A stretch of 64,000 nt of DNA from Peptococcaceae bacterium BICA1-7 (GTDB taxonomy: Bacteria > Bacillota > Desulfotomaculia > Desulfotomaculales > Desulfocucumaceae), in assembly GCA_000802095.1 (NCBI GenBank), contig JUEB01000033.1, positions 248,001 to 312,000 on the forward strand, given 5' to 3'. Made by a program: the position numbers and the translations under genes. Under the pieces are notes generated by a model. The model was given only the letters and a program-made list of their open reading frames with translations. It ran no database searches and was not told where the DNA came from. Shown piece after piece: positions 44,350 to 56,822 of this stretch; the stretch's first letter is position 1, and each line of letters begins with the position of its first letter.

Positions 44350-45444
44350 TTAGCTCAGATCCTCGTCAGACACATCATAGTCAAAAGCACTGTCAAGTAA
44401 ATCATCGTCTTCATCATAGAAGTATGCAGTAACAGTTAAGAGAGTTATATCCGCATCGTCCTCAAAGGCATCTGCAATCTCTTTGCAAATATCGATCACT
44501 TCATTGTCAATAGTGGTGCTGCTCAGATCATCCCATTCCGAGGAGGCATCATCATCGTCCGCGTATAAATAAACATCAACTCTGTAATTATCGTCGTAAT
44601 CAACTTCATCCAAGGTGAAAGCTATGCCGCTCACATCATAATCCTCACCTTCAAGGTTATCCACAACATCATCGGAATCCGACCCTCCATCCCGGTAGTC
44701 ATCATCCTCAAATTCTACGTCAAGGCTATCGTCCCCGTCCTTGGAGAAGTCCACCAGCGTATCATCGCTGTCGGTGTCTATAATGGTTCCGTCAACGTTG
44801 GTATCTCCCGATAATTCATCTTGTATGTCGTTTACTATATCCTCAATCCAGTTCTCTATGTCGCTGTCGGTCAGATCTTCCCACTCACTGTCATAGTCAC
44901 CCAGGTCCACTTCAATATCAACGTCAACATCGTCCTCGTCTCCGTCAAGGCTGATATCGTCAATATCCACGTCTTCCAGGCGGTCATAGTCGGATAGCAG
45001 GTCATCCTCCAGGTCGTTAATCACTTCATCATCAGTATCATTATCATTATTCTGCAGGGAGGTGATGGTATTATTCAAGCTGGTAATTTCACTATTCTTT
45101 TGTGCCAGCTGAGCTTTTAGGTCCTGTATCTCCTTATCTTTTTGGGCCAATAAATTTGGATCAGTCTGCACCGTGCCTGATATTTTCACCGCTTTGGCTG
45201 CATCTATCCACTCCACCTGCTGGTTTAAAGCCTCGGCCACCACTCTGATGGGAACAAAGGTTCTTCCGTTGTAAATAAACGGCTCCTCATCAGGCGGAAC
45301 ACTGACAGCCATTCCATTTACGTATATCTTCATATTCTGGTAAACAGCGCTGATCTGCCTTGTGGCCAGGGCAGCCTCCGCAATTCCGGCAGTCACCAGT
45401 ATAATGGCCAGTGACAGTAATACAGCAATAATTCTTTTCTTCAA
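44350..45444 (-). CDS. secreted stalk-domain protein (copper amine oxidase N-terminal-like) with very acidic tail
   Basis: A 364-residue exported protein. A signal peptide of about 24 residues ends near AEAALA. Residues about 30-90 form a copper-amine-oxidase-N-like stalk domain (MKIYVNGMAVSVPPDEEPFIYNGRTFVPIRVVAEAL). A coiled coil (about 95-130, heptads of Leu/Ile) follows. The C-terminal 230 residues are extremely rich in Asp/Glu and seem to hold two related beta-alpha units (DSEWEDLTDSDIENWI and SSEWDDLSSTTIDNEV). TTG at 45444, seven bases after GGGGGAG, is the best start. The acidic part could bind calcium or another cation at the cell surface. Confidence 0.8.
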   Translation of the reverse strand: MKKRIIAVLLSLAIILVTAGIAEAALATRQISAVYQNMKIYVNGMAVSVPPDEEPFIYNGRTFVPIRVVAEALNQQVEWIDAAKAVKISGTVQTDPNLLAQKDKEIQDLKAQLAQKNSEITSLNNTITSLQNNDNDTDDEVINDLEDDLLSDYDRLEDVDIDDISLDGDEDDVDVDIEVDLGDYDSEWEDLTDSDIENWIEDIVNDIQDELSGDTNVDGTIIDTDSDDTLVDFSKDGDDSLDVEFEDDDYRDGGSDSDDVVDNLEGEDYDVSGIAFTLDEVDYDDNYRVDVYLYADDDDASSEWDDLSSTTIDNEVIDICKEIADAFEDDADITLLTVTAYFYDEDDDLLDSAFDYDVSDEDLS

Positions 45445-45604
45445 ACTTATCTCCCCCATCATTTTTGATTGGATTCTGAATGGAACAGGCTGATTTTATT
45501 GCCATTTTTTACGTTAGTTCGATCAACTGCCTATAAATACCTGCTTGAAATTATGAATAATTGGGGGGTTATTTATTTTTGCCGGCTTTTGGTGTGGTAT
45601 CCGC

Positions 45605-47310: not shown

Positions 47311-48069
47311 TTACTGATTGTCCAGTAACTGTCGGATGGAGGCGGCCAGGGTTTCAGGGCTGGGGTCCTGGAATAAGTTTCTGCCTATGGCCACTCCGCC
47401 GGCGCCAGCCTTGACGGCGTCTGCAATCATGGACAGCAAATCGCCGGTGGAATCCATCCTGGGGCCGCCTGCAATTACCACCGGGATACTTACCGCGCCG
47501 GTAACCTCGGCGAAAGTCTCCGGGGAACCGGTATAGTTTACCTTTACGATGTCTGCGCCCACTTCCTCAGCCACCCGGGCAGCATGTTTTATTTTCGCCG
47601 GGTTGTACTCGTTTTCTGGAATCCCGTCTCTTACGTACATCATGGCCAGGAGAGGAATTCCCCAGAGATCGCACTCCTCCGCCAGCTTGCCCAGGTCTTT
47701 TAGCATTTGGGTCTCATAGCTGCCGCCCAGATTTATATGGGCCGATACCGCGGTTGCCCCCATTCGGATGGCGTGTTTCACCGAAGATATGGTCTCCTTT
47801 TTGTTAGGGTCCGGAGACAGGGAGGTGGAGGCCGAGAGGTGGACCACCAGATCGCAGCCTCCCGGGTAAACAAAATCAGTTATTTGCTTGGCCAGTCCCT
47901 TATGCACTATAATAGCGTCCGCTCCACCATCAACTACTGCCTTTACAGTCTTGCGAATATCTATAAGTCCCGGGGCCGGCCCAATGGTGATCCCGTGGTC
48001 CATGGGAACAATGAACAGCCGCTTGGAACGCTTAAACAGCTGTCTCAGGCGCACTTCTTTCCCTTTCAT
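47311..48069 (-). CDS. class I aldolase of the 2-amino-3,7-dideoxy-D-threo-hept-6-ulosonate synthase / GriI family
   Basis: A 252-residue TIM-barrel aldolase of the DeoC/FbaB superfamily. IVPMDHGITIGPAPGL near the N-terminus and ADIVKVNYTGSPE, with the Schiff-base lysine, near residue 180, are typical of archaeal ADH synthase (AroA'). That enzyme makes the precursor of 3-dehydroquinate from aspartate semialdehyde. GriI-type relatives make the 3-amino-4-hydroxybenzoate precursor instead. It is directly downstream of a DHQ-synthase-II gene. The ATG at 48069 follows AAGGGGGAAG. Confidence 0.85.
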   Translation of the reverse strand: MKGKEVRLRQLFKRSKRLFIVPMDHGITIGPAPGLIDIRKTVKAVVDGGADAIIVHKGLAKQITDFVYPGGCDLVVHLSASTSLSPDPNKKETISSVKHAIRMGATAVSAHINLGGSYETQMLKDLGKLAEECDLWGIPLLAMMYVRDGIPENEYNPAKIKHAARVAEEVGADIVKVNYTGSPETFAEVTGAVSIPVVIAGGPRMDSTGDLLSMIADAVKAGAGGVAIGRNLFQDPSPETLAASIRQLLDNQ

Positions 48070-48092
48070 GAATACTTCCCCCTTAAGTGTCA

Positions 48093-49199
48093 TTATTTTT
48101 CGATAATTGTTTCATCAACCTTTATGCCGACGTGCCGCCCCGGCTCACAGAGGTAAGCCAGGAGGCTGTCGCCGGGCCGGATGGCGGAGGCGTTCCGGGG
48201 AAGGCCGTCTGCGCCCATGATCCTTATATGCCAGTCGTCCTGCACTACGACATTCAACTCTCTGCCGGCTGCCTCTCCCTTGATTAATAAAAGTGGCCTT
48301 ACCTCGGTTTTAACCCGGCCCACGGTCACTTCCCTGGCCTCTCCCTTTGTATTTACGCACAATACCTTGCTTCCGGCAGCCAGGTCGGTAATATATTCAG
48401 TGGAGTTATTGGGCGCCCAGACGTAGGAGTGGACGGCCCCGGCGTTAACCCTGAAGGGGCGCAGGTTCATGTAAGGGAGAAAGTGGGTTTCGGAGCAGAC
48501 CAGTATCCCGCCCCCCGAAGTGGACCCCACGATCATGCCCTCTTCCCGGGACATAAGATCGGTAGTGTCAATACAGGCCCTTGATCCCATGCCGGTATGG
48601 CGGACCTCGGTAACCACCAGCGGGCACAGCTCAAGATGACAGGCTCTTTCTTTACGCAGGTAACTGGTCAGCCCAATGATTTCATTGCTGTCCATTCCGG
48701 AAAAGAGCACCCCGTCGCTTCCTTTTTCCAGGACTCCAAAGGCGACCTCCATGTCATCAGCGGTTGACACCCGGCGCAGGAGAACAGTATTGCTGTCCTG
48801 AAGCCTGGCGATGATCAGCTCCAGCGGTATGTTGGTAGGCAGGTCGAAGTCCACGGCGGCATAGTCATGCTTTACAGCCTCCTGCCACGACTGCTCCAGG
48901 GCCTCACTGTCGTTTACCGAAAGAAAAACACATGTCCTGTATCCCTGCCGCCTGGCCTCCTCCAGTACTTCCGGGCTATCTGAAAATACTGTTTCCCCGC
49001 CGGCCAGCCCGGCCAGATCTTCTGTATCGCGGACCGCGGTAATGAGATGGGTTTTGTGGGGAAAGTGGCCGCTTATCCGCTGTTCTGCGGATACCACCAC
49101 TTTTTCAATGGGCGAATTGTTTACCAGCCCCCAGATATCCGATCGCTCAAGGGGTACCGACCGGCCGTCGAACCATATCTCCTTCTGTTTTTTGACCAT
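48093..49199 (-). CDS. 3-dehydroquinate synthase II / GriH-like protein
   Basis: A 368-residue protein of the archaeal-type DHQ synthase (AroB', DHQS-II) family, unrelated to ordinary AroB. Marks include EIWFDGRSVPLERSDIWG, KEGMIVGSTSGGGILVCSETH-like text (actual EEGMIVGSTSGGGILVCSE), FRVNAGAVHSYVWAPNNSTEYI and EVRPLLLIKGEAAG. In archaea it turns the ADH-synthase product into 3-dehydroquinate by oxidative deamination. GriH homologues keep the amine and make 3-amino-4-hydroxybenzoate. Sequence alone does not tell which. It is 23 bases upstream of its aldolase partner, a conserved pair. Confidence 0.88.
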   Translation of the reverse strand: MVKKQKEIWFDGRSVPLERSDIWGLVNNSPIEKVVVSAEQRISGHFPHKTHLITAVRDTEDLAGLAGGETVFSDSPEVLEEARRQGYRTCVFLSVNDSEALEQSWQEAVKHDYAAVDFDLPTNIPLELIIARLQDSNTVLLRRVSTADDMEVAFGVLEKGSDGVLFSGMDSNEIIGLTSYLRKERACHLELCPLVVTEVRHTGMGSRACIDTTDLMSREEGMIVGSTSGGGILVCSETHFLPYMNLRPFRVNAGAVHSYVWAPNNSTEYITDLAAGSKVLCVNTKGEAREVTVGRVKTEVRPLLLIKGEAAGRELNVVVQDDWHIRIMGADGLPRNASAIRPGDSLLAYLCEPGRHVGIKVDETIIEK

Positions 49200-49273
49200 G
49201 GTTTACTCCTTTCTCCTGTTTGCTAATAAAAATTCTATGAACCACAGGCTCTGTGTGTCATGGTAAGGGGATC

Positions 49274-50530
49274 TCACATCCGGGCGGACTTAATGTATTT
49301 TTTCTGACCCATTTCAGCGGCAGAGTAGATGTATTGCGGTTTTCCCACCACGCCCACGGACAGCAGCTCGCTGCGGTCATAGAGGGTCCCCCTGGGGACT
49401 ACATCAATATAAAGCTTCATACTATATTTTTTTTCCAGCTTATTGATCAGCTGGGGTGAGATGCTGCCTGACTTCCTTTCCTCCTCCACCACCAGGTGCA
49501 GCCCGCCGGGTGCGGGACCCACAGCCCAAAAGCGCCGGCAGGGGAGGTGGGAGACAATTTCATCCAGGTCCCACAGGTCCAATGACCTGTCTCCCACGGT
49601 AATGGTGTCTTCCCGGCGGCCTCTTATTTCCAGGGAGGCTGACGCCCCGCAGGGACACTCTTTTTCAACAAACCTTGCCCTGTCCCCGGTAAGATACCTG
49701 ACCATGGGAGTGGCCTTCTTTTTGAGGGCGGTAACCACCAGGTAGCCAAGCTCACCGGGCTTTACCTCGTTCTTCAGTTCTTCGTCCAGCAGTTCAAAAA
49801 CAAAGTAATCCTCCAGCGGGTGAGGCCTTCCGAATTCGCAGTCAACCACCGCTGTGCCTATTTCGGCCATGCCGTAGATGTCAAAAACAGGCACTCCCCA
49901 AATATCCTGCAGCAGCCTGCGCCGACCGGCGGACAGAGGCTCTCCTGCGGTGCAGATGGCCCTTAAGTCAGGGAAGTCCTGATTGGGTTTTTTCCCAAGC
50001 AGCTCTGCGGTTTCAGCTATAAGCACCGCCTGCAGGGGCAGGCAGGTCAGGACGGTTACCTGCAGCTTTTGCAGCAGGGTGATCACCCTGGGAAAGGGGC
50101 TGACTGCGGAGCGGGCGCCCACCGGGACCACGCAGGCGCGCTTCATCTGGGCCGCGGCGTGTATCATATGGGCTATGGCCGAGATGGAATAGGGGAAACG
50201 CACCAGCACTGTGTCGTCATGGTTGAAATCTACCCCGCACAGGGTGATCTCTCTGGCATTGTAGCGCAGGTCCTCCCTGGTGAACCAGGTGGAAACAGGC
50301 ACGCCGGTGGTGCCAAAGGTTTCATGGTACTGAAAGATCTCCCTCGGGGGCACGCAAATGAGCCCCAGGGGGGACAGGCTGCGGAGGTCCTCCTTGGTGG
50401 TCAGGGGAATATCCTTTAATTCCTCCAGGGATCTTAAGGGGCGGCCGGGCAGGCGCTCCCTGTAAAAGGGGGAGGCTTTGCAGTGCTCCAGCAGCTGGTT
50501 AAGCGCCCTGAGCTTTTCCTCAGTTTTCAT
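49274..50530 (-). CDS. PaaK-like adenylate-forming enzyme (phenylacetate-CoA ligase / F390 synthetase family)
   Basis: A 418-residue ANL-superfamily ligase. The P-loop TFGTTGVPVSTWF is at about 91-103. YGMAEIGTAVVDCEFG and YLTGDRARFVEKECPCGASASLEIRGRREDTITV, with the CPCG zinc-like motif, follow, then a C-terminal small domain. It should activate a carboxylate, probably aromatic, as AMP or CoA ester. It sits just upstream of the DHQ-synthase-II/aldolase pair on the same strand, and a second relative is at 53119. The substrate is unknown. Confidence 0.87.
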   Translation of the reverse strand: MKTEEKLRALNQLLEHCKASPFYRERLPGRPLRSLEELKDIPLTTKEDLRSLSPLGLICVPPREIFQYHETFGTTGVPVSTWFTREDLRYNAREITLCGVDFNHDDTVLVRFPYSISAIAHMIHAAAQMKRACVVPVGARSAVSPFPRVITLLQKLQVTVLTCLPLQAVLIAETAELLGKKPNQDFPDLRAICTAGEPLSAGRRRLLQDIWGVPVFDIYGMAEIGTAVVDCEFGRPHPLEDYFVFELLDEELKNEVKPGELGYLVVTALKKKATPMVRYLTGDRARFVEKECPCGASASLEIRGRREDTITVGDRSLDLWDLDEIVSHLPCRRFWAVGPAPGGLHLVVEEERKSGSISPQLINKLEKKYSMKLYIDVVPRGTLYDRSELLSVGVVGKPQYIYSAAEMGQKKYIKSARM

Positions 50531-50544
50531 GTGTGTATCATCCC

Positions 50545-51300
50545 CTAAACAAGGCGCAGGAGCGCCCGGATATTACCGCCCAGTATTTTTTCGCTCTCTT
50601 TGTCAGGCAAGCCTAAGAGAAGTATTTTTTTAAGCTCCACGGCCGGGTGGGAGAGAGGGTACTCTGAGCCGAATATAATTTTTTCGGCGCCGGCCTTTTC
50701 TACTGACTGCTTAATGTGCAGGTAGCTTCCGGTGGATGTTTCCAGGAATAGATTGGGCAGCTCAGCCGCCGCTTCCATTGCTTCCCGGTCAGCCGGGCCA
50801 AAGCCCATATGCCCGAGAATAAAGTTTGTTTTGGGGAACTGCCTGGCCAGGGCCACAAATCTGGCGGTGGCTGCACCCGGGCTGAAAACCACGTGGCTGT
50901 ACAGGGGATAGCCGTGGCTTGCGCAGCATTCCGCCAGGGCGGCCACCACCTTGCCGGCAAAGGAGAACTGGTGTGTCATGGGTGTAAGCTTTAGTCCCCG
51001 GAAGCCCTGCTTAAAGCTGCCTTCAAGCGCTTCAACCGCATCCGGGCTGTGCGGGTCGATACAGGCAAAGCCCTGAAGTGAGGGATGGAGGCGGCAGGAC
51101 TCCTTTACGTAGTGGTTGTCAGGGACGGGGTTTTCAGGCTGGGCCTTGCCAATTATGTAGTCAGTCATCCTGCGCACGTCCATAGTTCCACCGGGTACAA
51201 CCACCCCCCGGTCAATGCCGGCTTCTTTGAGCTGGCTTATATAATTGGCCACATCTCCGTAGGAGGTGGCCGATATATGAGCATGGGCGTCAATAATCAC
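50545..51300 (-). CDS. amidohydrolase-family metal-dependent hydrolase (PF04909-like)
   Basis: A 251-residue TIM-barrel hydrolase. The N-terminal MIIDAHAHIS gives the HxH metal pair. Further ligands are YSHVVFSPG and ILGHMGFG. At the last position usual GSDxP is GSEYPLSHP, with Glu for the catalytic Asp. Family members are decarboxylases or C-C/C-N hydrolases of ring acids (ACMSD, resorcylate decarboxylase). The GTG start follows GGAGG, 14 bases upstream of the PaaK-like gene in the direction of transcription, so they share an operon. Confidence 0.83.
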   Translation of the reverse strand: MIIDAHAHISATSYGDVANYISQLKEAGIDRGVVVPGGTMDVRRMTDYIIGKAQPENPVPDNHYVKESCRLHPSLQGFACIDPHSPDAVEALEGSFKQGFRGLKLTPMTHQFSFAGKVVAALAECCASHGYPLYSHVVFSPGAATARFVALARQFPKTNFILGHMGFGPADREAMEAAAELPNLFLETSTGSYLHIKQSVEKAGAEKIIFGSEYPLSHPAVELKKILLLGLPDKESEKILGGNIRALLRLV

Positions 51301-51440
51301 TGTAGATTCCTCCTTTATGGTGTAACAGCAATCTTTCTAAAAAAACTTATGCTGAAATCCCTGTGCGGTCGGAATTCAGAATACAGAATAGTTTAGGCAT
51401 TTCTTATAAGTTGAATAATTCTTATCAGCTGGGCTCTTAA

Positions 51441-51491
51441 TCTCTGTGTCCTCTGTGTGCTCTGTGGTTAAAAAGGACCTGAATTTCATCC
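51441..51491. repeat. partial MITE-like element, right-half copy C
   Basis: Repeats of CTCTGTG followed by GGTTAAAAAGGACCTGAATT match the right end of copy B (52952-53111). The 16-base CCTGTGCGGTCGGAAT at 51360-51375 is the inverted match of 35166-35181, with GAATTCAGAATACAGAAT next to it. Confidence 0.6.
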
Positions 51492-51519
51492 TTAGTTGCC
51501 CGGTTGTCTGGTTTCGGGA

Positions 51520-52923
51520 TCAGTAATGGGGCAGGGGCGGGGGCTGCCAGCCGCCCAGAGCCTTTTCGATATGGAGCGCCACAGCCAGGGCCACGTCCTC
51601 ACGCCAGGGGCGGGCCACCACCTGTACTCCTATGGGCAGCCCTTCGGGCGAGGTTCCGCAGCGGACCACCACCGCCGGCCACCCGGTGAGGTTATAGGTG
51701 GTGGCGTAGCTGAAGGCGGGGGCATTTTCGCCGCTGGCTGCAGCGCCGTGGGGCATAGCGGGAAGGGCGCAGGCCGGGCAGATAATGACATCATATTTTT
51801 TAAGGAAAGATAGCATCTCACAGCGGAAGAAGCGCCACCTGTACATCATCCCGCCAAACTCGGCGGCTGACACCGCACAGGCCCCCACCGAGTCCAGCAG
51901 CTGGCGGGTGAGGGTGTGCGGGCTGGATGTTCCGGCCATTTGAAGCAGTATGTTGATACCTGACCCGCCATCGGCGGAAAGAAGGCTGCTCATCAGATCC
52001 TGAGACATGCCTATAATATCCGGGCGGTCCTCCACCACGGCCAGGCCGGCATCGGACAGAGCCCCGGCGGCTGACTTCACTGCCTCAGAGGTTTCCCGGG
52101 TGGGTGACATAATCCCATTGTCGGTATAGAAGGCCGCGCTCAGGATCCCCAGCGTGACTTTTCCGGAATCCCCCGGGGGAACCGGCACCGTGGAGGGGTC
52201 CAGCCAGTCGGTTCCGGCCAAAATGGGTAGGGTCAGCGCCAGGTCTTCCACAAACCTGGCCAGGGGCCCCACCGCCGACAGCTGTTCCATCATCCAGATA
52301 TAAGGCGGGAAGAGGCCTGTGGCCGGCACCAGCCCGGTTGTGGGCTTGATGCCGGCAATGCCGCAGAAATGAGCGGGCAGGCGAATGCTTCCGGCGGAGT
52401 CACTGCCCAGTCCCAGCGGTGATCCGCCTGCAGCGATGGCGGCCGCCTCGCCTCCGCTGCTTCCGCCGGGGGTGTGCAATAGGCTATAGGGATTGTTGGT
52501 TCTCCCGTAAACCAGGTTGTCGCTCTCATAGGAAAGGCTCAGTTCCGAAACATTGGTTTTGCCAAGCAGCACCGCTCCGGCGGACCTCAAGCGCCCCACG
52601 GCGGTGGCGTCCCGGTCCGGGACAAAGCTCCTGCGCCCCTCGGTGCCCCCTGTTGAGACCACACCGGCGGTATCAAAGGAATCCTTGACCGTTACCGGCA
52701 CGCCGTGGAGCGGCCCGGCTATTTTTCCCCGGGCAAGGAGGGCGTCGGCATGGCGGGCCTCGGCCCTGGCCTCCTCCGCTCTCAGCCGGATCACAGCGTT
52801 AAGAGAAGGGTTTATATTTTCAATACTCTTCAGGTACGCGCCCACAGCCTCTTCCGAGGAAACGTTTTTGGCTCGGATGGCCCGGGCCAGCCCGGCTGCC
52901 GAAGTATGGGTTATATTATCCAT
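51520..52923 (-). CDS. amidase (amidase-signature family)
   Basis: A 467-residue AS-family amidohydrolase. The Ser-cisSer-Lys triad is seen in VKDSFDTAG (Lys about 78), GGSSGGEAAAIAAG (cis-Ser about 155) and GSDSAGSIRLPAHFCGI (nucleophile Ser about 178). The rest follows GatA-like architecture, but no gatB/gatC is near, so it is a stand-alone amidase. It lies in the cluster with two PaaK-like ligases, which suggests hydrolysis of an amide intermediate or product. AGGGGAG precedes the ATG. Confidence 0.9.
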   Translation of the reverse strand: MDNITHTSAAGLARAIRAKNVSSEEAVGAYLKSIENINPSLNAVIRLRAEEARAEARHADALLARGKIAGPLHGVPVTVKDSFDTAGVVSTGGTEGRRSFVPDRDATAVGRLRSAGAVLLGKTNVSELSLSYESDNLVYGRTNNPYSLLHTPGGSSGGEAAAIAAGGSPLGLGSDSAGSIRLPAHFCGIAGIKPTTGLVPATGLFPPYIWMMEQLSAVGPLARFVEDLALTLPILAGTDWLDPSTVPVPPGDSGKVTLGILSAAFYTDNGIMSPTRETSEAVKSAAGALSDAGLAVVEDRPDIIGMSQDLMSSLLSADGGSGINILLQMAGTSSPHTLTRQLLDSVGACAVSAAEFGGMMYRWRFFRCEMLSFLKKYDVIICPACALPAMPHGAAASGENAPAFSYATTYNLTGWPAVVVRCGTSPEGLPIGVQVVARPWREDVALAVALHIEKALGGWQPPPLPHY

Positions 52924-52951
52924 TTTTTTCTCCCCTGTTTGAAAATATCCC

Positions 52952-53111
52952 GGTCTTTATTAGCAGAGGACACAGAGATCACAGAGAATTTACTCTTAGG
53001 CGCTACTCTGAGGTCTGAAAGTAGATATTAAAGTTTTGTCTGCCTTTTTAAAAACTTTTATAGCATTCAAGCAGGCAAAAACTCTGTGTCCTCTGTAGCT
53101 TTAAAAGGACC
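52952..53111. repeat. MITE-like inverted-repeat element, copy B
   Basis: A 160-bp element between the amidase and second PaaK-like gene. Left end: GGTCTTTATTAGCAGAGGAC. Right end: its imperfect complement ending AAAAGGACC. Internal GGTCT and AGCATTC blocks align with copy A at 21514-21677. The right end stops eight bases short of the PaaK-like gene's stop codon. Confidence 0.7.
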
Positions 53112-53118
53112 TGAATTT

Positions 53119-54474
53119 TCATCCTCTGATGGTACCGCTTGCGGCAGGCGCAACTACCCGGACAGTTTTGCCCTGCGGGCGGGGAATTTTATCCACAATT
53201 TCAAATTCACAGGGCAGCCCGGTGCCGAATTCCATTTTGCTGGCCAGATAATCAGCCAGCTCCGGAGTGGGGCTGACCCCCGGTGCTAGCTCGGCCCTTA
53301 TTTTCAGCCGGTCCGATCCCGCCGGATCAACCACGAACTGGAACCAGTGGCCCACTTCCGGCAGCCGCATCAGGAATTCTTCCAGGTAGAAAGGAGACAG
53401 CTTTACTCCCCGGATTACTACATGGTCCACCAGCCTGCCCCGCAGAAACAGCCTGGGGAGGGGGACCCCGCAGGGGCAGGGGTCAGATTCTATATAACCA
53501 AGGTCCTGGGTGCGGTAGCGCAGTATGGGGGTGTCGTAACGAAGCAGGCAGGTAACCACTATCTCCCCAATCTCACCTGGCTCCATGACCTTCCCGGTGT
53601 GGGGGTCCACTATTTCAACAGCTGTGTGGGCGGTGGCCAGGTGGTAGCCGTTGTGGGCGTCACACTCAATGCCTACTCCGCCGCACTCCAGGGAGCCATA
53701 GTAGAAGTTGGCCGTAGCGCCCCATATACTCTCCACTCTCTGGCGGAAGGAATATGAGCAGCCTTCTCCGGTGAGCCACATCTTTTTCAGAGGCAGACTT
53801 TTTAAGTCAAAGCCGTATTCAGCCGCCGCCTCGGCCAGGGTAATGGCCCAGGAGGGGGTGGTGATCACCACGGTGGGCTGCAGGTCACGCATCATCTTGA
53901 TGGTTTTGGCCGGAGTGGAATAGGCTCCTCCTTTTCCGGCCGGGATCACGGTGGCCCGGCAGCCGTCCATAAAGGTCTTGTGAAAGGCCAGGCCCGCCGA
54001 GCTCATTTCGTAGGGCAGGGCGTTGAGGACTATATCGCCCCGCTCCACCGGCACCAGGGTAGGATAGCCGGCGGACATTTCGTAAAGGTAATAGTCCTCC
54101 CAGGTATTCATGATGTATATTTCTTCTCCTCCGGTGGTTCCGGTAGATACCTGCACCAGGGAAATATCCCCCTTGTCGCAGGCCAGGAGCGCCCACGGGT
54201 TGCCCCGCAGCTCATCCTTGGTGACGAAGGGAAGAAGGCTTAGATCCTCAAGAGATTTTATGCTGTCCGGGCTTACCCCCTCCCGGTCCATCTTATCCCG
54301 GTAAAAGGGGGAATGATTGTAGGCTCGCCTTACTATCTCAATCAGTGATTCTCTCTGAAACTCGGCCAGCCGGTCTAAAGGCATGCTGTCGGGAAAATTG
54401 GGCACGGTAAAGTATTTGCCGGCCAGCCCCGGCTTGCCCATGTCATTTATTATTTTTTTCAGGTTGATCTTCAT
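53119..54474 (-). CDS. PaaK-like adenylate-forming enzyme
   Basis: A 451-residue ANL-superfamily ligase of the phenylacetate-CoA ligase type. The P-loop STGTTGGEEIY is near residues 111-121. YGSLECGGVGIECDAHNGYH, YRTQDLGYIESDPCPCGVPLPRLFLRGR and VIRGVKLSPFYLEEFL follow. It differs clearly from the other PaaK-like protein, so it is not a recent duplicate. It overlaps the end of the TPR protein gene by 32 bases, so the two are probably translated from one mRNA. An aromatic or hydroxy-acid substrate is inferred from the family. Confidence 0.87.
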   Translation of the reverse strand: MKINLKKIINDMGKPGLAGKYFTVPNFPDSMPLDRLAEFQRESLIEIVRRAYNHSPFYRDKMDREGVSPDSIKSLEDLSLLPFVTKDELRGNPWALLACDKGDISLVQVSTGTTGGEEIYIMNTWEDYYLYEMSAGYPTLVPVERGDIVLNALPYEMSSAGLAFHKTFMDGCRATVIPAGKGGAYSTPAKTIKMMRDLQPTVVITTPSWAITLAEAAAEYGFDLKSLPLKKMWLTGEGCSYSFRQRVESIWGATANFYYGSLECGGVGIECDAHNGYHLATAHTAVEIVDPHTGKVMEPGEIGEIVVTCLLRYDTPILRYRTQDLGYIESDPCPCGVPLPRLFLRGRLVDHVVIRGVKLSPFYLEEFLMRLPEVGHWFQFVVDPAGSDRLKIRAELAPGVSPTPELADYLASKMEFGTGLPCEFEIVDKIPRPQGKTVRVVAPAASGTIRG

Positions 54475-56677
54475 CCCCGGCGCCCATCCTTTCTTTCAGC
54501 AGTTCGGTATATTTTGAGCCAGGGTTTTCTTTCAGAAGCTTTGACCATATCTTTTGGGCCCTTTCGGTGTCACTGGTGCGCTGGTAGGCCACACCCAGGT
54601 CATAAAGTATCTTATGGTAGAGGTCCCTGGAGAAAATGCTGTCTTCCTGCTCACATACCATTTTCAGGAATTTGAAATCCTTAATGGCCCGCTTGGTCTG
54701 GTGGAAGAACACCTCGGGCAGGGAGTAGGCCAGGTAGGCCCGCAGCAGGCGTATCCTGGGATTGTTCCGGTCCCGTGATATGGCGCGGTTTAAATGGACC
54801 AGCCCCTTTATGGCGCTGCCGAAAATGGCGTTGGGCTCGGTGGCGTCCCGACCCACCAGGGCCATGCTGCTGCCGAAGTAGGCCCTGGCGACAGTGTCAC
54901 CGGGATAGGCCTCATAGGCTTTTTGCCACATATCCAGGGCCAGCCTGGACGCCCCCGGGTTGCCTGCCACACCCAGATCATGCAGACGGAATCCTTCCTG
55001 GTAAAAAGCTTCCCGGTTGTCCGGGGTCAGCTGTTCCAGGGTGCTCCTGACCACTTCACGGCCGCTGCTTTCATTGATCATGGCTTTGAATCTCGGATCA
55101 GGCTTGAGAGACAGAAGCTTTGCGCGGGTTGAAGAGGCCTCCTCCTCCAGTCCCAGTCGCTGGTAAGCCACGCTCAGGTCGTAGAGGATCTGCCAGTACG
55201 TTTCGGCTGCAAACGCCGACCGATTTTTTTCATACATCTGAACCAGGAATTCAAAATCAGCGATGGCCGGAGCCGTGCGGTGGAAAAAGGCCTCAGGCAG
55301 CCGGAAGGAGTGGTAGGCCCTGATCATTCTTATCCTTATATCGTCAGGACTGCTGTTTACGGCGCTGTCAATTATCTTGGAGGCCTTTATGGGGGTGGAA
55401 AACATTTGGCCGGGATCTGCCGCGTCCCGCGCCGCCAGGGACATGCAGTCGGCATAATAGGCCCTGGCAAGGGGGCTGTCCGGATTAGCCTCCATGGCTT
55501 TCTTAAAGAAGCTCATGGCTTTATGGGAGGCCTTTTGATCGCCTTTCAGGGCCAGGTCCCTTAGTTTAATGCCCTCGGTAAGTTTTTTCTCTATTTCTTC
55601 GTCCGGCGGCTTATTTTTTTTTTCGGTGTCCAGGCCGGGTAAAACGCCGGCGGCCTTAAAGCCTTCAGCCCTGAGAAGTTCAATGTATTTTGGGTCCTTT
55701 GTCACAGACAGAAGTTTTTGCCAGGTGGACTCGGCCTCCTGGTTTTGACCAAGGCGCTTATAGGACGATCCCAAATTAAATAAAACCTGACTGTAAAAGT
55801 CTTTTGAGAAGGATGGGTTACCATCGTAGCAGGAAGCAAGGTAGCTAAAATCTTCTACTGCAGTGCCGGTGCGGTGAAAAAAATTCTCGGGCAGCCGGTA
55901 ACACACATAAGCCCGCAGAGTGCGTATTTCTACATTCTCCGGCTCACGGGACACTGCACTGTCCAGTATCTTGAGTCCCCTGATGGCCTTATTGAACCTC
56001 TCCGTAGGATTAACAGCGTCCCGGCCAAGGAGAGAGGTTGCACTGCCGTAGTAGGCCTCCACAAGGGTGTTTTGAGGCGCCAGCTTCCGTAATTTCTCAA
56101 GCTGTGCAACGGCCTCCTTAACGCTGTCCCGATTACCTTCAACCCCCAGTTTATGCAGGTTAACCGCCTGGGCAAACAGTTCTCCCCAGGGTTCACTTGC
56201 GGCAGCGTGGGCAGCAGCAGTCTGTGCCGGGAGACTGACTCCGGTGTCTGAAGTTGATTTTTCTTCCTCTGGGGCCTCCTGGGCCAGGGCAGTTTTCTCC
56301 CCGGTGTCTGAAGCTGATTCTTCTTCCTCTGGGGCCTTCTGGGCCAGGGCAGTCTTTTCCCCGGTATCTGATGCTGCTTTCTCTCCCTCAGGGACTTCTT
56401 CGGCAATATCAGATTGCTCCCCGGCGTAATCATCAGTGCCCAGAACCGGCTTTTCAACGTCTATTTTGATATCACCGGCCCCTTCAGCTTCTTCCGCTGT
56501 CTTTGTATCCAACTGTTCCGGCGGATGCGCGCACAGAGGGACCTCTATCGGGTAATGCTGTTCCAGGGCTGTTTTGGGATAATGGTCCTGTTCTTTTTGG
56601 GTGTGCCCGGTTTGTTCGATCTTTGCCGATACTTCAAGCAATTTCGGCTGTAACAATACCTGATGAAACTTGGTCAT
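54443..56677 (-). CDS. three-module TPR-like repeat protein with tandem-repeat linker
   Basis: A 744-residue soluble protein. Residues 1-90 are unrecognised. Residues 92-146 hold three copies of a 20-residue Glu/Ala repeat (EKTALAQxAPEEExxSDTG). Three modules of about 180 residues follow (about 165-345, 370-540, 560-735). Each has the same order: LGVxGN, a TPR pair, ARDAxxP, LPExFFHRTxxAIxDF and LSVAYQRLG-like helices. This triplication looks ancient. A scaffold role for neighbouring ligases is a guess from the overlap with the PaaK-like gene. AGGAGG precedes the ATG. Confidence 0.82.
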   Translation of the reverse strand: MTKFHQVLLQPKLLEVSAKIEQTGHTQKEQDHYPKTALEQHYPIEVPLCAHPPEQLDTKTAEEAEGAGDIKIDVEKPVLGTDDYAGEQSDIAEEVPEGEKAASDTGEKTALAQKAPEEEESASDTGEKTALAQEAPEEEKSTSDTGVSLPAQTAAAHAAASEPWGELFAQAVNLHKLGVEGNRDSVKEAVAQLEKLRKLAPQNTLVEAYYGSATSLLGRDAVNPTERFNKAIRGLKILDSAVSREPENVEIRTLRAYVCYRLPENFFHRTGTAVEDFSYLASCYDGNPSFSKDFYSQVLFNLGSSYKRLGQNQEAESTWQKLLSVTKDPKYIELLRAEGFKAAGVLPGLDTEKKNKPPDEEIEKKLTEGIKLRDLALKGDQKASHKAMSFFKKAMEANPDSPLARAYYADCMSLAARDAADPGQMFSTPIKASKIIDSAVNSSPDDIRIRMIRAYHSFRLPEAFFHRTAPAIADFEFLVQMYEKNRSAFAAETYWQILYDLSVAYQRLGLEEEASSTRAKLLSLKPDPRFKAMINESSGREVVRSTLEQLTPDNREAFYQEGFRLHDLGVAGNPGASRLALDMWQKAYEAYPGDTVARAYFGSSMALVGRDATEPNAIFGSAIKGLVHLNRAISRDRNNPRIRLLRAYLAYSLPEVFFHQTKRAIKDFKFLKMVCEQEDSIFSRDLYHKILYDLGVAYQRTSDTERAQKIWSKLLKENPGSKYTELLKERMGAGDEDQPEKNNK
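56240..56404. repeat. 60-bp tandem repeat inside the TPR protein gene
   Basis: Nearly three copies of a 60-base unit encode the 20-residue repeat of the linker. The copies are close to identical, for example GGGCCAGGGCAGT recurs, which suggests recent expansion and possible length variation between strains. Confidence 0.8.
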
Positions 56678-56745
56678 CCGCTTTCCTCCTTCTTATGGAA
56701 AAATAAATAAAAAAAACCATATCTTCCTGTTTGTATAACAGTTTA

Positions 56746-56822
56746 TGGCAATAAAATGGTATATGTGATTATGCCTGGAATTAAATATAGTTATTGCCAA
56801 ATAAAAACCAAAAAATGGCAAT
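56746..56822. promoter_or_regulatory. three ATTGCCA motifs upstream of the TPR protein gene
   Basis: TGGCAAT at 56746 and 56816 and ATTGCCA at 56793 lie in an AT-rich gap before the TPR gene. The last two form an inverted repeat with a 16-base spacer. A regulator site is possible. No gene is seen between 56678 and 56933. Confidence 0.35.

Follow-up and report, generated by a model that had tools for sequence, protein, structure and literature searches.

The minus strand of the window (the whole 64-kb stretch of DNA analysed here) carries an operon-like block of seven open reading frames, at 47311-56677, which probably encodes a variant of the closoxazole (benzoxazole) pathway characterised by an additional TPR protein. 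Promoter sequences make it rather likely that the operon is under sporulation control, and this TPR-type variant may well be a mother-cell pathway of late sporulation. The block and the associated promoter site comprise the following features:

47311..48093, minus strand: candidate AHBA aldolase, ClxE type (TIGR01949, 302.2 bits against a cut-off of 299.45, plus motif)
48093..49199, minus strand: DHQS-II-type enzyme, candidate 3,4-AHBA synthase, ClxB/GriH type (PF01959, 330 bits)
49274..50530, minus strand: ligase A, ClxA/NatL2/AjiA1-type aryl amide/ester-forming ligase (top PDB match ClxA, 9s3l)
50545..51300, minus strand: ClxD-type candidate condensing amidohydrolase (PF04909, Amidohydro_2)
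51520..52923, minus strand: amidase-signature enzyme, optional member (PF01425, 341 bits; motifs)
53119..54474, minus strand: ligase B, PaaK-like adenylating enzyme, candidate for the ClxC/PfxA role (PF00501 and PF14535)
54443..56677, minus strand: TPR protein, 744 aa (module HMM)
56739..56767, minus strand: sigma-K-like promoter site CAC-N17-CATAAACTG, ~62-90 bp upstream of the TPR start

The open reading frames, span and families agree with those reported in the initial annotation. The aldolase and DHQS-II genes overlap by 1 bp and the ligase B and TPR genes by 32 bp, while the other gaps do not exceed ~220 bp. The arrangement is not due to chance, since the same set recurs with equally close packing in dozens of genomes. 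Four of the proteins (TPR, ligase B, amidase and amidohydrolase) were also tried with PADLOC as parts of a defence system and gave no match.

The initial annotation knew of no described system with this set. However, five of the seven genes correspond to members of the closoxazole set, and the top PDB match of ligase A is ClxA itself. The closoxazole cluster encodes five enzymes. ClxE and ClxB produce 3-amino-4-hydroxybenzoate (3,4-AHBA), whereas ClxA couples two units, ClxD forms the benzoxazole ring and ClxC attaches a third unit; the homologous pathway of P. fallax, for which m/z 289.08, 271.07 (benzoxazole) and 406.10 are given, has been reconstituted in vitro (PMC12118335). The enzyme types common to the window and the clx and pfx clusters (Clostridium cavendishii and Pyxidicoccus fallax, respectively) are the AHBA aldolase, the synthase, two AMP ligases and the amidohydrolase (PMC12118335), where the likeness to clx refers to sequence for ClxA and to enzyme type for ClxB, ClxC, ClxD and ClxE. 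In contrast to both clusters, the window's clade adds a near-constant TPR-module protein and, in some species, the amidase. Ligase A is moreover only ~40% identical to ClxA, with changed contact residues, and the promoters look sigma-K-like. The nataxazole enzymes NatL2 and NatAM from Streptomyces likewise combine a ligase with a zinc amidohydrolase to make a benzoxazole (PMC7204872), but their precursor is 3-hydroxyanthranilate. The BagB, BagC and BagE proteins of bagremycin/ferroverdin biosynthesis in Streptomyces represent an AHBA pair plus ligase, as in the window. To our knowledge, neither an amidohydrolase nor a TPR protein belongs to that set.

In a sample of 398 Bacillota genomes, the host genome (4.75 Mb, 33 contigs) among them, 22 contain a close relative of the amidohydrolase, and nearly all of these 22 have the same neighbours around it; the operon is conserved in 20 or more genomes from many families. 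A scan of 84,980 species yielded 58 loci, 52 of them with a close relative, and extended the hosts to Heliobacterium, Heliophilum, Thermincola, Syntrophomonas, Metabacillus, Rossellomorea, Filobacillus, Aquisalibacillus and many MAGs. The co-occurrence of six families, put forward as a check in the initial annotation, thus held for the set as a whole, which travels together across Bacillota, but not for the amidase. The latter carries Lys (VKD), GGSSGG and SAGS motifs and is found otherwise only in L026/L081, L088 and L095, which represent three lineages; it is an optional, non-core member of the operon. The L081 operon lies on a contig titled 'Actinobacteria bacterium', with an amidohydrolase 92% identical to that of the window. 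This title looks wrong, since kinship places the same contig (G002) in the genus of the window. A CPBP/Rce1-like membrane protein often adjoins the operon (L075, 6763-7695; L155, 8726-9454; and further loci).

The TPR protein, previously treated as a mere add-on, proved to be a near-constant partner. In the Bacillota clade, 42 of 47 loci encode it; of the five remaining loci, four end at a contig edge, and for the fifth, L087 (apparently G240), TPR matches lie on a different contig. The protein comprises a variable N-terminal region of ~160 aa followed by three modules, each ~169 aa long and all from a single family, at residues 168-335, 366-534 and 560-727. Its AlphaFold model (mean pLDDT 85.6) displays three helical TPR modules, and a fold search with this model returned generic TPR superhelices only. 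Intact loci contain two to five modules per operon, variously divided over one to four genes. The closoxazole literature that we covered contained no description of such a partner, and the TPR protein is a conserved new part of the closoxazole-type set. Whether it acts as a scaffold or coat part is a more tentative matter, for which we see a real though lesser chance.

The link to sporulation emerged from the sequences upstream of the operons. The consensus for sigma-K reads AC-N16/17-CATAnnnTA. The window contains a single exact match to the pattern MAC-N17-CATANNNTR, against 1.46 expected by chance in 64 kb. It is located just upstream of the TPR start, and this site is conserved in L026, from the same genus, and in L027. 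Upstream of the first TPR gene, a block that fits sigma-K (AC-N16-CATAnnnT) is common to eight of nine Bacillaceae loci, and Syntrophomonas zehnderi has a site at all four transcription units. Overall, a strict site preceded at least one core unit in 10 of 33 lineages, compared with 0.47 expected from shuffles. Counted by unit, strict sites were present at ~14 of 45 TPR-operon units versus 7 of 207 control upstream regions (p = 7e-7 in a Fisher test based on 13 of 43 units), these counts including the non-independent rows of the Metabacillus pairs and of Filobacillus/Aquisalibacillus. With a relaxed sigma-K score, the separation between core and control upstream regions was weak (p 0.006 at score 8), whereas the strict pattern separated them well. 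The published B. subtilis sigma-K logo has a similar spacing (PMC517825).

The gene neighbourhoods point in the same direction in some of the hosts. In the M. litoralis group, ligB-ligA forms a separate operon more than 100 kb away, which has the same promoter element and adjoins a Coat_F gene, and a spore_YkwD-type gene adjoins the operon in Metabacillus. The host genome of the window encodes a TPR paralogue that has its own site upstream and adjoins a spore_YkwD-type gene (below the model's cut-off). A second stand-alone paralogue (G203) also has a sigma-K-like site, and for a paralogue in G017 the match lies ~400 bp upstream, beyond the strict test window. No spore genes were found among the genes flanking the operon in the window. 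Both the promoter form and the spore-type neighbours in some operon hosts resemble the B. subtilis sigma-K regulon of spore coat genes. We know of no member of that regulon that makes an AHBA compound, and none of the papers listed in our literature search joined benzoxazole and endospore.

Sigma-K-family genes scored above the cut-off in eight of the nine hosts tried, the window's host among them (308.6 bits against a cut-off of 298.65). The host also encodes SpoIVA, but since this protein was present in 336 of the 398 sampled genomes (84% of the sampled phylum), its presence in operon hosts says little. We further observed two halves of a sigma-K-family gene in the host genome (G000:C17:232170-232502 and 240705-241061, profile positions 6-117 and 108-226), located on one strand ~8.2 kb apart and resembling a skin-type interruption, in addition to a full-length sigma-K-family gene at C26:296264. 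Two sigma-K halves were also present in Syntrophomonas zehnderi (L085), on different contigs.

The near-constant TPR partner, together with the sigma-K-like sites in several lineages, suggests a tough aromatic spore compound rather than an ordinary antibiotic. Nevertheless, the operon could be an ordinary closoxazole-type antibiotic cluster that is expressed in the growing or stationary phase and has no role in spores, with the TPR protein serving as an enzyme scaffold. Its genes are near kin of the clx genes, and clx-type clusters without TPR do occur; they make up five of the 52 loci and come from Spirochaetes, Acidovorax, Anaerobacterium and Bacillus sp. REN10. In addition, the strict site was absent from Heliobacteria, Thermincola, Rossellomorea and several others of the 33 lineages. 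We regard this explanation as possible but doubtful, given the enrichment of sigma-K-like sites, the occurrence of the same element at the split ligase operon beside Coat_F, and the TPR paralogues that stand among spore-type genes with sites of their own.

The proposal that PaaK-like enzymes activate the ring acid is borne out to the extent that both ligases fit activation of 3,4-AHBA. Ligase A matched ClxA (9s3l) best in the PDB (E 1.3e-69, 238 bits; 39.8% identity over 322 residues, with ClxA residues 8-330), followed by AjiA1 and NatL2 (201 bits for the latter), all well above PaaK. Its top NCBIfam match was BagE_FevW, with 218 bits, far under the cut-off of 800. Ligase B instead had PaaK (4r1l, 179 bits) as its top PDB match. 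Against the PaaK equivalog cut-off of 646 bits, ligases A and B scored 108 and 191.6, respectively, both far below. In the alignment, the ClxA contact residues K140 and N226 are changed in the TPR-type ligases, K140 to Ala or Ser and N226 mostly to Thr, Ser or Ala, with few retaining Asn, although both positions are details of ClxA not established as defining the closoxazole ligase family. S118, a modelled acceptor contact in ClxA, is retained. In ClxA, N226 touches the para-hydroxyl of the donor, and the K140A mutant yields oligoamides. The donor or acceptor of ligase A may therefore differ from those of ClxA. An Ala-type residue at the K140 position as a sign of oligomer formation was set aside, since the aligned AjiA1 residue is Ala as well.

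The amidohydrolase is predicted to form an amidohydrolase-2 barrel (model pLDDT 89.2), the nearest solved folds being amidohydrolase-2 enzymes and decarboxylases. NatAM uses three His ligands, one Asp and one catalytic His (PMC7204872). The window's enzyme is shorter than NatAM; it has retained the HxH motif, another two His and one acidic residue, which is Glu where NatAM has its catalytic Asp; these residues (H6, H8, H136, H164 and E213) were invariant in alignments of 24 relatives. The TPR-type amidohydrolases group as a single clade in the tree (95/91), and the window's protein is 45% identical to its homologue in L125; the ligase of that locus shares 48.8% identity with ClxA.

The changes in ligase A leave some room for an AHBA pathway with a non-benzoxazole product, in which the donor would be another, perhaps imported, aryl acid and the end product an arylamide or ester. 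Nearly all TPR-type ligases have another residue in place of N226 but retain S118, and genes for ABC importers occur close to the cluster in genomes of the Thermincola type and others, either of the LIV type (L063, L066, L068, L082, L090 and L122) or of the unrelated NMT1 type (L062, L065, L067, L087 and L155). Those near the Thermincola-type clusters may provide for an imported building block. On the other hand, the amidohydrolase is always there, with all its catalytic residues intact, and we consider this outcome unlikely. The importers close by in some genomes, the PaaK-like ligases and an Amidohydro_2 fold near aromatic decarboxylases would also suit an operon for the catabolism or uptake of aromatic acids, with the ligases acting as CoA ligases. 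This is quite improbable: the AHBA-making pair is constantly present, ligase A sorts with bond-forming ligases rather than CoA ligases, and the conserved set is free of ring-reduction genes.

The families of the first two genes fit the synthesis of 3,4-AHBA, in line with the ring acid originally proposed as their product, although profile scores do not separate DHQS-II from AHBA synthase. Archaea use DHQS-II together with ADH synthase for shikimate entry, but that the pair is likewise this organism's shikimate entry, with the remaining genes incidental, can practically be dismissed, because the host genome has aroB (163 bits) as well as three DAHP synthases at other loci, the DHQS-II gene being present as a single copy, and because the other operon genes travel with the pair.

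For the TPR-type closoxazole variant, we propose the following sequence of events. Upon recognition of the sigma-K-like promoter, the mother cell would transcribe the operon at a late stage of spore formation. The aldolase and the DHQS-II-type enzyme, judging by their families, would convert aspartate semialdehyde and triose phosphate to 3,4-AHBA. By analogy with ClxA, PfxC and NatL2, ligase A would adenylate an aryl acid and couple it to 3,4-AHBA as an ester or amide, after which the amidohydrolase would close the benzoxazole ring, as PfxB and NatAM do, and ligase B would add a further aryl unit in the manner of ClxC/PfxA. The protein with the TPR modules would most likely be either a scaffold in the cytosol or associated with the coat, keeping the enzymes or the product in place where the spore is forming. 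Where present, the amidase may hydrolyse a dead-end amide arising from ester rearrangement.

More speculatively, many endospore formers might make 3,4-AHBA-derived benzoxazole or arylamide material in the mother cell, kept in place by a dedicated TPR-module protein, to give the spore a sunscreen or a resistant layer. This would represent a spore-specific small molecule pathway alongside dipicolinic acid, an undescribed aromatic compound in the spores of Heliobacteria, Thermincola, Syntrophomonas, Metabacillus and their relatives, and a developmental role for a pathway so far filed as an antibiotic cluster. As 3,4-AHBA is also a monomer of heat-resistant polybenzoxazoles, the material properties of such a compound would be of interest. 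The TPR family provides a sequence marker for finding the pathway, and the split operon of Metabacillus opens its regulation to a direct test.

Finally, outside the block, positions 44350-45462 of the window encode a very Asp-rich protein of 370 aa, whose N-terminal stretch resembles, by eye, the N-terminal domain of copper amine oxidases.
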